From: Candidatus Zixiibacteriota bacterium
GTDB lineage: Bacteria > Zixibacteria > MSB-5A5 > GN15 > FEB-12
Assembly (NCBI GenBank): GCA_019038695.1
Contig: JAHOYZ010000007.1
Span: 1 to 64,000, forward strand
Length of the DNA stretch: 64,000 nucleotides
Reading direction: 5' to 3'
Positions within the stretch are counted from its first letter, which is position 1, and every line of letters starts with the position of its first letter. Below are positions 7,482 to 12,052 of the stretch, one piece after another. Under the pieces are notes generated by a model. That model was not told the DNA's origin, made no database searches, and saw only the letters and a program-made list of their open reading frames with translations. Made by a program: the position numbers and the translations under genes.

Positions 7482-7946
7482 TCAATGTCCCGCATCTTCA
7501 TCCAGCCTCTTTCTGCGGCGCTTGCTCAACCGTACCCATATTTCCCATGCTACACAGAGTACAGGAATTATCATACCAATTTTGATTCCGATCAACACTG
7601 AGAAACGGCCAGTCATGGCAACAGCAAAGATGAGGATCATTATCCAACTGCAAAGGATGAACCTCACGCCGGTCCACAATCCGGTATCCATCGCTGCCCT
7701 TCTCAGGAAACTCCTTCTGGCAAGGTGGTCACCTTTCGGTTCCAGATGTTTGCCATCCTCAGGATCAGCATTGAGGGCTTCGAGACGTTTGATCAGGGCA
7801 AAAAGGGTAGCACCCAGTGGTAACGCAACCAGTAATCCGAGGCGGTTCCCAACGGTGGCTAGTGAGTAGAATGCAGCAACAATCGTCAGAATAGAAACGA
7901 CAGGAATTGCTATTTTCAATATCATCAACTTGCGTTTGGTTAACAT
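7482..7946 (-). CDS. Hypothetical membrane protein
   Basis: Not recognised. The ATG at 7946 follows GAGG with 8-base spacing and gives 154 residues; the ORF could extend to 8033, but no better site is seen there. Two hydrophobic helices near the N-terminus (about 9-29 and 36-52) and two near the C-terminus (about 94-115 and 118-137) flank a charged cytoplasmic-looking loop with 'RSFLRRA'. The C-terminus is strongly basic ('SKRRRKR'), which by the positive-inside rule places it in the cytoplasm. No motif links it to the neighbouring transglutaminase. Confidence 0.6.
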   Translation of the reverse strand: MLTKRKLMILKIAIPVVSILTIVAAFYSLATVGNRLGLLVALPLGATLFALIKRLEALNADPEDGKHLEPKGDHLARRSFLRRAAMDTGLWTGVRFILCSWIMILIFAVAMTGRFSVLIGIKIGMIIPVLCVAWEIWVRLSKRRRKRLDEDAGH

Positions 7947-8070
7947 TGACTCTACCTCACAATGTGTTACCCATATACATTCGATCCCCTTGTTGGTTTT
8001 TCCCAGATCATCGCATCCAGTATACAAGTTCACAAATCCCTTAGCAAGCTATGGGCCATCCAGCCACTTT

Positions 8071-8135: not shown

Positions 8136-8163
8136 TTGACACCTGCCGATGAAATTATATATT
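8136..8163 (+). promoter_or_regulatory. Sigma-70-type promoter of the leader/ABC exporter operon
   Basis: TTGACA (8136-8141) and TATATT (8158-8163) are separated by 16 bases in an A/T-rich stretch. Transcription would start near 8170, about 69 bases before the leader ORF, and run into the attenuator described below. Confidence 0.7.
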
Positions 8164-8238
8164 TGCTGAAACAATTAGGAAAAGAATTCGTCTGGATATT
8201 GATATGAGAAACTCGCGCTGCTAAGGAGATTGGTTTTA

Positions 8239-8316
8239 ATGATTAGGTTCATGATCAATAGTTTCGGTGTGCTATTAAGCCATTATGCGGCGGGAGGAGT
8301 GCGTCCAATAAGGTAG
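8239..8316 (+). CDS. 25-residue leader peptide
   Basis: ATG at 8239 preceded by AAGGAG with 10-base spacing; 25 codons ending in TAG at 8314. The peptide starts MIRFMINSFGVLLSHY and ends AAGGVRPIR. It is too short for a known domain. Codons 17-19 contain the GGCGGG segment that can pair with the terminator's 5' arm, and a small hairpin (8300-8321) covers the stop codon. It fits a regulatory leader whose translation decides read-through, like BmrB ahead of bmrCD in Bacillus subtilis, rather than a functional protein. It could also be chance within a non-coding leader. Confidence 0.55.
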   Translation: MIRFMINSFGVLLSHYAAGGVRPIR

Positions 8317-8349
8317 ACGTATTTCACAAGGTAAGTTTTCTACCCGCCG
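8288..8349 (+). promoter_or_regulatory. Antiterminator pairing (8288-8294 with 8343-8349)
   Basis: CGGCGGG at 8288-8294, inside the leader ORF, is exactly complementary to CCCGCCG at 8343-8349, the 5' arm of the terminator. The two helices are mutually exclusive. A second hairpin (TGCGTC 8300-8305 with GACGTA 8316-8321, one G-U pair) nests inside the antiterminator loop. This is the expected geometry of a translation-controlled attenuator. Confidence 0.55.
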
Positions 8350-8378
8350 TGACTTAACAAGGTCTGGCGGGTTTTTTT
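8342..8378 (+). terminator. Intrinsic terminator/attenuator ahead of the ABC exporter
   Basis: CCCGCC (8343-8348) and GGCGGG (8366-8371) form a 6-bp GC stem, extended by an outer A-T pair, followed by seven T (8372-8378). It ends 70 bases before the first exporter ATG, inside the leader of the same transcript, so it should act conditionally. Confidence 0.75.
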
Positions 8379-8448
8379 GTGACTCGAAGGATGGGCCTTG
8401 TCACTTTGCGGCACAATGGTGTCGGACAAACACTGAGAGGCAAACAAG

Positions 8449-10272
8449 ATGATTGCAGAGTTCTATGAAGATGAAAAAAATACGCGTGAAGAGCAGGAGA
8501 TAACGCTCGGACGCGCTCTCGGGCGCCTGATGCCTTTCCTCCGCGAGCAACGGAAGCGACTGGCCTACTGTCTTGGGCTCCTCATTGTGGTGACTGTTAT
8601 GTCTCTGGCGTGGCCGTGGCTACTCCAGGGAGCAATTGATGGACCCCTCAACGACCAGGTCACAGGATCCGACCTTGAGGCAGCCTTCATGACGCTACTC
8701 GGTATCGGTCTGATCGTCGTGCTGTTGCAGATCGCAACGATTGTGCTTCAGTATGTACAACGGGTAAAGCTGGAAGTGATTGGTCAGAACATCATGCTGC
8801 AACTGAAGCAGAAGTTGTTCGATCACATTCTTTCGCTGGACGTTCCGTTTTTCGATAAGCACCCGGTTGGCCGACTGATGGCGCGAGTGGAATCCGACAC
8901 CGAATCGCTGCGAATGTTGTTCACCAACACCGTTGTGCTGATCGTGGGGGATGTAATTATGATGATTGGCATCTACTCCATCATGCTCTACGTCCACTGG
9001 AAACTGGCTCTCACCCTGATAGTATTCCTGCCGCTGCTGGCGGTGTTGACCTGGATATTCCACCGGCTGACCACCCATCGTTTCCTGGAGGTTCGCAAGC
9101 GGATGGCCGAAGTTACCGCCACCTTGACTGAGTATCTGCAAGGTATGTCTATTGTTCAGATATTCCATCGCGGCGACTGGGCAAGCGAGCGTGTCTTTCG
9201 GGTCAATGAACGCAAGTTCAGCGAAGACGCCTGGGTCAATATTGCGGTCTGTGTTTTCTTCAACCTGCTGTTCTATTTTGAGTGGGTGAAGATTGGAATA
9301 GTGCTTCTGATGGGAGCAGTGTGGGATGTTTCAGCCGGAACCATAGTGATGTTTATCATTCTCATCTGGAAAGAGTTTGATCCCATCGCACGGACTGCCG
9401 ACCAGCTCGGAACTTTCCAGAAGGGTTTGGCCGGAGCGCGACGGATCTTTGCCATACTGGCGATTGAGCCCAAGGTCGTTGACCCGGTTCAGCCGGTCAG
9501 GTGGGAAAGCCTGAAAGAAGGCATCAGGTTTGAGAATGTCTGGTTTTCTTACAGTGATGATGACAACTGGGTTTTGCGTGACGTCAGCTTTGAGATTCCG
9601 GTCGGTCAGAGAATCGCTCTGGCCGGTGTCACCGGTGGAGGTAAGTCGACAGTCATATCGTTGCTACTGCGATTGTACGATCCCCAGAAGGGACGGATCA
9701 CCGTAGACGGTATAGATATCCGCAACATCACGAAAGCTGATCTGCGGCGACGTTTCGGCCTGGTCTTGCAGGACATAATCCTGTTCCCGGGTAACGTGGC
9801 GTCCAATATCGGTCTCGAATCGGAAACGGTCAGTCATGAACAGATTGTGACCGCCTGTCTGACAGTCGCCGCCGATCCGGTCATCCGGAAACTGCCGGAT
9901 GGCTACCAATCGACGGTTTCGGAGAAAGGCAGCAATTTCAGTCGTGGCGAGCGACAACTGCTCTCTTTCGCTCGTGCCCTGGCGGTCGATCCGGATTTGC
10001 TTATTCTGGATGAGGCTACAAGCTCAGTCGATCCCGAAACGGAACGAACGATTCAGGCCTCGCTCACCAAGCTCATGGCTAATCGTACGTCACTGATTAT
10101 TGCTCATCGCCTGTCGACGATTCTCGATGTTGACCGGATTTTGGTTATCCGGTACGGGAAAATCATCGAACAGGGGACACATATAGAATTGTTGCTGCAG
10201 GACGGCTACTACTCGAAGCTGTTCCACCTGCAGTTCAAGAATAGAAATGGAGTCGCATCAGATGCTGGCTAA
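8449..10272 (+). CDS. Heterodimeric ABC exporter, subunit with canonical Walker B
   Basis: A 607-residue half-transporter: six membrane helices (about 38-310), then an ATPase domain. Walker A is GVTGGGKST (393-401), Walker B ends 'LLILDE' with the catalytic Glu at 522, and the H-loop His is in 'IIAHRLST'. The signature is degenerate ('FSRGERQ' instead of LSGGQ). In type IV heterodimers such as BmrCD or TM287/288 this subunit gives the working Walker A/B of one site and the weak signature of the other. A GAGAGG site precedes the ATG at 8449. The partner gene overlaps its end. Likely role is drug or lipid export across the inner membrane; substrate unknown. Confidence 0.92.
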   Translation: MIAEFYEDEKNTREEQEITLGRALGRLMPFLREQRKRLAYCLGLLIVVTVMSLAWPWLLQGAIDGPLNDQVTGSDLEAAFMTLLGIGLIVVLLQIATIVLQYVQRVKLEVIGQNIMLQLKQKLFDHILSLDVPFFDKHPVGRLMARVESDTESLRMLFTNTVVLIVGDVIMMIGIYSIMLYVHWKLALTLIVFLPLLAVLTWIFHRLTTHRFLEVRKRMAEVTATLTEYLQGMSIVQIFHRGDWASERVFRVNERKFSEDAWVNIAVCVFFNLLFYFEWVKIGIVLLMGAVWDVSAGTIVMFIILIWKEFDPIARTADQLGTFQKGLAGARRIFAILAIEPKVVDPVQPVRWESLKEGIRFENVWFSYSDDDNWVLRDVSFEIPVGQRIALAGVTGGGKSTVISLLLRLYDPQKGRITVDGIDIRNITKADLRRRFGLVLQDIILFPGNVASNIGLESETVSHEQIVTACLTVAADPVIRKLPDGYQSTVSEKGSNFSRGERQLLSFARALAVDPDLLILDEATSSVDPETERTIQASLTKLMANRTSLIIAHRLSTILDVDRILVIRYGKIIEQGTHIELLLQDGYYSKLFHLQFKNRNGVASDAG

Positions 10273-12052
10273 GATAAAATGGTTTTGGAAATACTATCGG
10301 GACTACCCTGGCGTGATTGCGATCCTGCTGCTACTGACTCCTATACAGGTGGCACTGCAGGTGACCATTCCACGCCTGATCGGGTTTACTGTTGATGTCC
10401 TGAAAACCGGTGAGTTACCCGAGCACTGGCTGGCGATCGGTCTGGCTGACTTAGGTTTAAAGTATGATCTGGGTCCGACCGAGTCGTTTGGCTGCGCTTT
10501 CATAATCCTCGGTCTGTTCTCCCACATAATGTATGCCTACTTCCAGTCATGGCGCGCGTGGATGAACCTGAAACTCGAGTGGTTGTTTCGTCAGGATGCT
10601 TTTAACCAGATTGTCACTAAAGGACCGGATTTTTTCAATCGCTTCCGGACCGGTGATCTTATCACCAGGATGACCGACGACGTGGCTGAGAAACTATCGT
10701 GGTTCGCATGTTCAGGGATATTCAGGCTGTATGAGGCCTGTCTGGCAGTGACGTTCATTATTGTTATGATGATTTCAATCGACCCGATCCTGACCCTGTG
10801 GACAACAGGTCCGTTGCCGTTGTTGATCGTGATTTTCTTTATCACTTCGTCGCTCCTGGACAAGCGCTACGATTGGTTGCAGAAGAAGATATCCAATTTC
10901 AACGACACGATGGAAGCCTGCTTCTCCGGTGTGCGAGTAGTCAAAGCTTATGTTCGCGAAACAGCCCAGATGAAGAAATTCAACGAGGCAGCCAGAGATA
11001 GACGGAAGGCCGAGATCGGCGCCGTCAAGGTTACTACCGTCGTTGATTCGCTGTATAACTACATCTGGCAGTTTGGCGTTGTGATTGTACTGGTAGCTGG
11101 TGGCTACAAGGTTTTGTATTCGGATTTGTCGATCGGCGATCTGGCTACATTTATCTACTATGTGACCTGGCTGGTCTTCCCCATGTTTGACATCGGGCAG
11201 TTCCTGGTCAAATCACGGCAATCGGCGGTGTCGATCAACCGTTTGTTGGAACTGGAGAATGTCCCGCCTATGGTAGCCGATAATGGCACGAGCAACGGGG
11301 ATCGTCTGGCAGGAGGTCTCAACCTGCAAAACGTCTCGTTTGCATTTGAAGGATCTGAGCACCGAATACTCTCAGACGTTTCGATAGAGATTGAAGCCGG
11401 TCAGACGGTCGCCATCGTGGGAAAAATCGGCTCCGGCAAGAGCTGGCTGGTGAACATGATTCCGCGACTGGTCGATCCGACCGGGGGAATGATTGATCTG
11501 GATGGTCGTGACCTGCGCCAGTTCACCCTGGAGGACCTGCGCCGCAATGTCGGGTTTGTACCCCAGGAACCGGTGTTATTCAACGACACCATTCGGAACA
11601 ATATCCTCATCGGTCGGGATGGAATATCTCCTGCCCTGATCGACTGGGCCATTGAGGTGTCGCAGTTAGGCCAGGACCTGAAGGACTTTACGGAAGGATT
11701 GGAGACACCTATCGGTACCCGCGGAGTGGCAATCTCCGGTGGTCAGAAACAACGGTTGGGACTGGCTCGGGCGCTGGTTGGCAAACCACAATTGCTGATT
11801 CTGGATGACTGCACATCGGCGCTCGACTCGGACACGGAGGCCGCATTGTGGGATCGTCTCAATGAGGTTATGCCGGAGATAACAGCCATCCTGATAACGC
11901 ACCGACCAGATACGCTGGAGCGCGCGGACAAAATCTTCGTGCTTGATGAAGGACGGTTAGCGGAAGAAGGAACCCATGCGGCGTTGATCGCACGGGAAGG
12001 TCTCTATGCCCGTATTTACAAACGCTATCAATTGGCAGAGGAGGTTGGTTAG
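10262..12052 (+). CDS. Heterodimeric ABC exporter, subunit with degenerate catalytic site
   Basis: The partner half-transporter. The ORF opens at 10247, but the ATG at 10262 has GGAG 9 bases upstream and overlaps the previous stop by 11 bases, so the 596-residue form is preferred. Membrane helices occupy about 20-310. Walker A is GKIGSGKSW (the final S/T is Trp), the signature is the canonical ISGGQ, and Walker B ends 'LLILDD', with Asp in place of the catalytic Glu (about residue 516). Combined with subunit one this gives one consensus site (its ISGGQ plus the partner's Walker B) and one degenerate site. The 'ITHRPDT' H-loop is intact. Confidence 0.92.
   Translation: MLAKIKWFWKYYRDYPGVIAILLLLTPIQVALQVTIPRLIGFTVDVLKTGELPEHWLAIGLADLGLKYDLGPTESFGCAFIILGLFSHIMYAYFQSWRAWMNLKLEWLFRQDAFNQIVTKGPDFFNRFRTGDLITRMTDDVAEKLSWFACSGIFRLYEACLAVTFIIVMMISIDPILTLWTTGPLPLLIVIFFITSSLLDKRYDWLQKKISNFNDTMEACFSGVRVVKAYVRETAQMKKFNEAARDRRKAEIGAVKVTTVVDSLYNYIWQFGVVIVLVAGGYKVLYSDLSIGDLATFIYYVTWLVFPMFDIGQFLVKSRQSAVSINRLLELENVPPMVADNGTSNGDRLAGGLNLQNVSFAFEGSEHRILSDVSIEIEAGQTVAIVGKIGSGKSWLVNMIPRLVDPTGGMIDLDGRDLRQFTLEDLRRNVGFVPQEPVLFNDTIRNNILIGRDGISPALIDWAIEVSQLGQDLKDFTEGLETPIGTRGVAISGGQKQRLGLARALVGKPQLLILDDCTSALDSDTEAALWDRLNEVMPEITAILITHRPDTLERADKIFVLDEGRLAEEGTHAALIAREGLYARIYKRYQLAEEVG

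Follow-up and report, generated by a model that had tools for sequence, protein, structure and literature searches.

A probable ribosome-mediated attenuator upstream of a putative heterodimeric ABC exporter operon in the Zixibacteria

A two-gene operon for a putative heterodimeric ABC exporter in a member of the Candidatus Zixiibacteriota is probably controlled by a ribosome-mediated transcription attenuator that would work like the one of bmrBCD in Bacillus subtilis. The operon lies in a window of 64,000 nucleotides (the whole stretch of DNA that was analysed) from a metagenome-assembled genome (MAG) of 3.28 Mb. A sequence-only reading of this window had proposed such an attenuator, and its observation as a whole was confirmed, position by position and far above chance. 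To the strands that it described, a fourth one (e0) has to be added, which is located directly 5' of the Shine-Dalgarno sequence of a small leader ORF and pairs with the 5' part of e1 (table 1). In the mechanism that we propose, RNA polymerase would start about 70 nucleotides upstream of the 25-codon leader ORF, and the nascent RNA could form three competing pairings, i.e. an anti-antiterminator (e0:e1), an antiterminator (e1:e2) and a terminator (e2:e3 followed by a U run). With no ribosome on the leader, e0 would capture e1, e2:e3 would form and transcription would stop. A normally moving ribosome would cover e1 during the synthesis of e2 and e3, with transcription again mostly stopping. A ribosome held in roughly the first 10-12 codons, however, would hinder e0:e1 and leave e1 free to pair with e2, such that transcription would read through into the exporter genes. 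The strands, their covariation, the ORF, its geometry and the link to the exporter come from sequence comparison. We infer the direction of each ribosome effect, and also that ribosome-targeting inhibitors would be the usual cause of stalling and thus induce the exporter. The earlier reading had stalling free a GGCGGG inside the leader ORF; its attenuator is supported by covariation, ORF and likeness of the exporter, but e0 probably captures this GGCGGG on a leader that is free of ribosomes, and the ON state would therefore need a ribosome that has started and is then stopped early.

Table 1. Features of the leader and of the exporter operon, in positions of the window.
Feature	Position	Strand	Detail or basis
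sigma-70-type promoter, leader operon	8136-8163	+	TTGACA 8136-8141, 16 nt, TATATT 8158-8163
e0, anti-antiterminator strand CGCUGC (DNA CGCTGC)	8216-8221	+	pairs with 8287-8292; predicted fold, own-versus-swapped test
Shine-Dalgarno TAAGGAG of leader ORF	8222-8228	+	sequence
leader ORF, 25 codons, peptide MIRFMINSFGVLLSHYAAGGVRPIR	8239-8316	+	ATG 8239, TAG 8314-8316
e1, antiterminator 5' strand UGCGGCGGG, inside leader ORF	8286-8294	+	pairs with 8343-8351
leader stop codon and next bases, stop hairpin	8308-8341	+	fold z scores
e2 ACCCGCCGUG, strand common to antiterminator and terminator	8342-8351	+	pairing, covariation
3' half of intrinsic terminator, e3 UGGCGGGU plus U run	8365-8378	+	pairing, covariation
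first half-transporter gene, 607 aa, BmrD/TmrA/TM288-like	8449-10272	+	Walker B Glu canonical (LLILDEATSS), signature divergent FSRGERQ
second half-transporter gene, 601 aa, BmrC/TmrB/TM287-like	10247-12052	+	Walker B LLILDD, Asp for catalytic Glu

Since the nearest gene-size ORF upstream of the leader (7482-8033, minus strand) is divergent, the leader needs a promoter of its own. The promoter claimed earlier is indeed the top site of the region, with 11 of 12 consensus matches, and a site with at least 9 of 12 occurs in 87% of 67 leaders as compared with 32% of shuffled sequences, at a median distance of about 77 nucleotides upstream of the leader ATG. Many of these 67 leaders also share GAAAC near the likely start site, just 3' of the -10 box (at about 8160-8200 in the window), and keep CGTA 50-60 nucleotides upstream of the leader ATG; the four-strand model accounts for neither motif.

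Exporter orthologues are preceded by the same leader in the whole order as well as in further families of the class, and its anatomy recurs in class-level genomes. The switch is kept in the larger part of the phylum. A DNA search found the leader in the sister species (74%), with short matches 5' of the exporter in many others. From the upstream regions extracted for 55 exporter orthologues, 41 leaders of two families were aligned (mean column identity 46%). The 25-codon ORF with its ribosome site stands as first described, and frame 0 is open through e1 in 41 of the 41 aligned leaders, with the other two frames (2/41 and 9/41) as the fairer comparison for this count because the aligned start was picked partly by ORF criteria. 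The leader stop lies 25-33 nucleotides upstream of e2 in all 41. Thus, an ORF that is predicted to be translated overlaps the switch. With other families included, the distance from the end of e1 to the stop is 15, 18 or 19 nucleotides in 59 of 71 leaders. The frame in which e1 is read varies (AAGG in the genus of the window, RGG or CGG elsewhere), which argues for conservation of the RNA and not of the peptide.

The terminator claimed in the sequence-only reading is formed by ACCCGCCG at 8342-8349 pairing with TGGCGGGT at 8365-8372, is followed by a T run (8372-8378) and ends 70 nucleotides upstream of the exporter ATG at 8449; a generic terminator scan missed it because of a loop limit of 8 nucleotides. 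Over 67 leaders its mean z is -4.35. The alternative pairing of 8288-8294 with 8343-8349 was exact as well and extends to nine pairs, two of them G-U (8286-8294 with 8343-8351), and as both structures use e2, they exclude each other. Over the 41 aligned leaders, e1:e2 is 92.9% paired (slid-register controls, 36-55%), six of its nine pairs have changed on both sides, and double-change cells number 34 against 10.1 in shuffles that keep shared ancestry (0/500). For e2:e3 the corresponding values are 96.3% paired (35-51% in slid registers) and 25 double-change cells against 6.6 in shuffles of the same kind, which likewise keep shared ancestry (0/500). The e1/e2 variants include GCGACGGG/CCCGTCGC, GTGGCGGG/CCCGCCAC, TAAGCGGG/CCCGCTTA and TCAGCGGG/CCCGCTGA. 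On this comparative evidence, terminator and antiterminator are mutually exclusive and kept by compensatory change, and the relatives, to which the earlier reading had pointed as a check, have both the leader ORF and the alternative pairing.

In most leaders a CCGC- or CCGU-like segment complementary to e1, i.e. e0, is located 12-25 nucleotides upstream of the start codon. Tested over 67 leaders, e0 matches the e1 of its own genome with a score of 15.68, as against 13.95 (sd 0.28) when partners are swapped, a procedure that keeps shared ancestry (0/5000 permutations), and no such own-genome match to e1 was found in two control regions, i.e. a more distal region and the 5' part of the ORF. Good cases are ACTCGTCGCG/CGCGACGGGT (L046), ATCCGCCGCGA/TCGCGGCGGGT (L055) and CCATTGCGA/TCGCAGTGG (L038). 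Column-wise counts per pair are weaker (70.5% paired). Sequence matching of this kind points to an anti-antiterminator strand and therewith to a trp-type four-strand switch.

The span from 8170 to 8380, suggested earlier for fold prediction, folds better than dinucleotide shuffles (z -2.45), and the predicted energies are graded (e0:e1 -11.9, e1:e2 -17.7, terminator -19.5 kcal/mol). When folding is constrained by a ribosome and the RNA is cut before e3, e1:e2 forms with a probability of 0.75-0.83 as long as the ribosome sits at codons 1-10, and of 0.00 once it sits on e1; with no ribosome and before e2 is made, the probability of e0:e1 is 0.71. These graded stabilities and ribosome-dependent folds are consistent with a switch that would be set by the position of the ribosome during transcription. 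At equilibrium and without a ribosome, e1:e2 (0.77) wins over e0:e1 (0.10) in RNA truncated before e3, so the OFF state in the absence of a ribosome must rest on the order and speed of folding. In the full-length RNA, equilibrium favours the terminator whatever the position of the ribosome, and hence the ON state must likewise be kinetic.

A ribosome that has reached the stop codon frees e1 again in these folds and brings e1:e2 back to 0.61, and ordinary translation may therefore lead to leaky read-through. Taken further, this could mean that the same four strands are switched ON by ordinary translation, i.e. that a ribosome at the stop uncovers e1 and the operon responds to how fast the leader is initiated, or to slow termination, and not to early stalling. 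At 18 nucleotides, a ribosome of usual footprint size whose A site holds the stop codon would just clear e1, which ends exactly at this distance in 42 of 71 leaders, and a hairpin often covers the leader stop codon. In the same lineage, however, e1 of the trpE-like leader adjoins the stop, such that the spacing gives no general rule, and read-through of bmrB is lowered by blocked translation and raised by inhibitors (PMC4191407). We therefore regard control by ordinary translation as improbable and keep early stalling as the preferred reading. The hairpin that the sequence-only reading had placed over the leader stop scores poorly in the window (z -0.3), whereas many relatives have it clearly, in the form TTGTGA-N6-TCACAA (set mean z -0.96 versus 0.06 for an upstream control). 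In L039, L048, L063, L164 and L196, for instance, this sequence has the form of a CRP/FNR-type site and also of an RNA hairpin. That the divergent leaders L145, L146 and L169 keep the hairpin with other sequences favours RNA over a CRP-type DNA site (TGTGA-N6-TCACA); a second control at the level of DNA, i.e. a protein site at the leader stop codon, is possible.

If a riboswitch or a protein-controlled antiterminator were at work, the small ORF would be incidental. The conservation of e1 as RNA in different reading frames would suit such a device, as would the unexplained GAAAC and CGTA. Incidental ORFs are not kept, however, in the way that this one is, with its frame open in 41 of 41 leaders, against 2 and 9 for the other frames, and its stop at a fixed place. 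Moreover, in two genomes of one genus (G027, leader L064, and G038, L189) the ORF does not reach e1, and the terminator is degraded too. Among the Rfam 15 families, none matched the leader above the gathering cut-off and nothing credible appeared at permissive thresholds. The literature that we searched contained no paper on riboswitches in Zixibacteria. Of the alternatives weighed here, this is the one we believe least.

The two exporter genes overlap by 26 nucleotides. Compared with bacterial half-transporters of solved structure, the first protein comes closest to TmrA, YheH (BmrD) and TM288, the second to YheI (BmrC), TmrB and TM287. A Walker B Asp in place of Glu together with a divergent signature, both seen in the translations, typically marks heterodimeric exporters in which one of the ATP sites is degenerate. 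As the earlier reading had it, the pair is likely a heterodimer and, by resemblance to BmrCD, TmrAB and TM287-288, drug-pump-like. Its best NCBIfam matches are MsbA-type and far below cut-off; its relatives are Zixibacterial records at 65-84% identity, with one more close record labelled Eisenbacteria.

A covariance model of the leader (R1), run on 132 genomes of the phylum with E <= 1e-5, gave 71 matches in 69 genomes, of which 63 lie 38-94 nucleotides (median 59) upstream of the exporter on the same strand. Three others are at contig ends, two are upstream of exporter copies that are incomplete or split (G028, G041) and another three precede amino-acid genes, which are trpE-like in G057 and G070 and pheA-like in G131; a weaker match in G044 is upstream of an aroH-like gene with a Tyr-rich leader. 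These gene names were read from translations. The leader upstream of the trpE-like gene contains WWWW (L149 and L150, translated for G057), that of the aroH-like chorismate mutase gene YYYRYYYAF (L152) and that of the pheA-like gene YYYQYFGLF (L191); judging from these sequences, they are amino-acid attenuators in Zixibacteria. Further weak matches (L153-L155, L157, L158) look like chance terminators and were rejected.

Since R1 also recognizes these leaders, which share their architecture with the exporter leaders of the same lineages, the latter might be classical attenuators that sense shortage of one amino acid. Pro is found at -5 relative to e1 in 28 of 67 leaders (background 5.8%), and Asn and Cys are about 4-fold and 5-fold higher than in the composition of the exporter. 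No run of three or more identical residues precedes e1 in any of the 67 exporter leaders, however, with WWWW and YYYQYF elsewhere as a positive control, which makes amino-acid sensing unlikely. In addition, Pro within -7 to -3 occurs in just 42 of 67, and the controlled genes are exporters. We thus give this alternative very little credence and retain stalling by ribosome inhibitors as the preferred cause. The enrichment of Pro(-5) and also Gly(-3) upstream of e1 may reflect a small RNA hairpin at this place (mean z -0.6). The rare codons AGA, CTA, GCA and GTA are 3-4 fold commoner in the leaders than in the exporter gene, which may partly be an effect of leader A+T content. A specific arrest peptide was rejected: in close pairs, changes upstream of e1 show little codon-position bias (30/39/44), with 19 synonymous and 26 non-synonymous single changes, and the N-terminal peptide is thus not under strong conservation.

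In B. subtilis, translation of bmrB is needed for induction of bmrCD by lincomycin, a start-codon mutant of bmrB has lowered expression and no induction, which is a precedent for an OFF state without translation, and rare codons in bmrB slow its translation (Reilman et al. 2014, PMC4191407). Both systems have a leader ORF before an ABC exporter, heterodimeric in B. subtilis and likely so here, with terminator, antiterminator and a predicted anti-antiterminator, and translation-dependent induction by ribosome-targeting drugs, shown for bmrB-bmrCD (PMC4191407), would be expected here. The layout differs. The bmrB terminator is inside the coding region (bmrB construct 162 nt; PMC4191407), whereas in the Zixibacterial leaders examined it is 3' of the leader stop; the anti-antiterminator strand is 5' of the Shine-Dalgarno sequence, unlike in bmrB; the BmrD-like gene comes first; and the phylum is another one. 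That the Zixibacterial leader works like the bmrBCD attenuator in a different layout is well supported, with drug induction as its conjectural part. Like trp- and phe-type attenuators, it has a leader peptide as well as a terminator and an antiterminator that exclude each other, and similar e1, e2 and e3 strands occur in the trpE-, aroH- and pheA-like leaders, which have the Trp or Tyr/Phe runs that the exporter leaders (ORFs of 22-30 codons, ending 5' of the terminator) are without. The sections of a study of patAB in Streptococcus pneumoniae on which we draw (PMC4319486) describe an expression-suppressing terminator upstream of the PatAB ABC exporter, together with a predicted antiterminator and a predicted anti-antiterminator; the inducers reported there are fluoroquinolones and DNA damage, and a leader-peptide mechanism is not described in these sections.

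What makes the Zixibacterial leader interesting is how widely it occurs in an uncultured phylum, and its complete, testable anatomy. Attenuators of the drug type have, to our knowledge, been described mostly for single genes of Gram-positive bacteria. In the present case, a probable attenuator goes with one and the same exporter in many families of a phylum that is represented in this analysis by MAGs only, and in Zixibacteria the control of efflux by sensing of translation therefore looks ancient and chromosomal. We tentatively consider, with more doubt than confidence, that the leader represents a new RNA family, inherited vertically, which responds to translational distress in general (any ribosome halted ahead of e1, or termination that is slow) instead of to one drug; its geometry looks adjusted to mask e1 only while a ribosome travels from the frequent Pro codon (-5) to the stop. 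If true, this would be the main intrinsic stress control of the exporter across the phylum. The leader is also a testable handle on the purpose of the exporter, with R1 as an RNA model for finding others.

Exporter orthologues are present in 97 genomes, and some of those without a strong R1 match carry divergent versions of the leader, seen by eye in families f2, f3 and f8; family f7 has none. In L182 and L183 (f8) and in L075-L080 and L085 (f2), the strands are wholly different in sequence in a seemingly identical arrangement, again by eye. In G027 and G038, the leader ORF ends 5' of e1, the terminator is degraded and the exporter gene is intact, such that these leaders look like natural decayed copies of the switch. 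Together with the variants of f2, f3 and f8, they represent ready-made natural mutants. Finally, the 5' part of a second or split exporter has a leader of its own in two cases (L142, G028:C1:818226, and L014, G041:C1), with a masked stretch in G041 at L014; these may be misassemblies.
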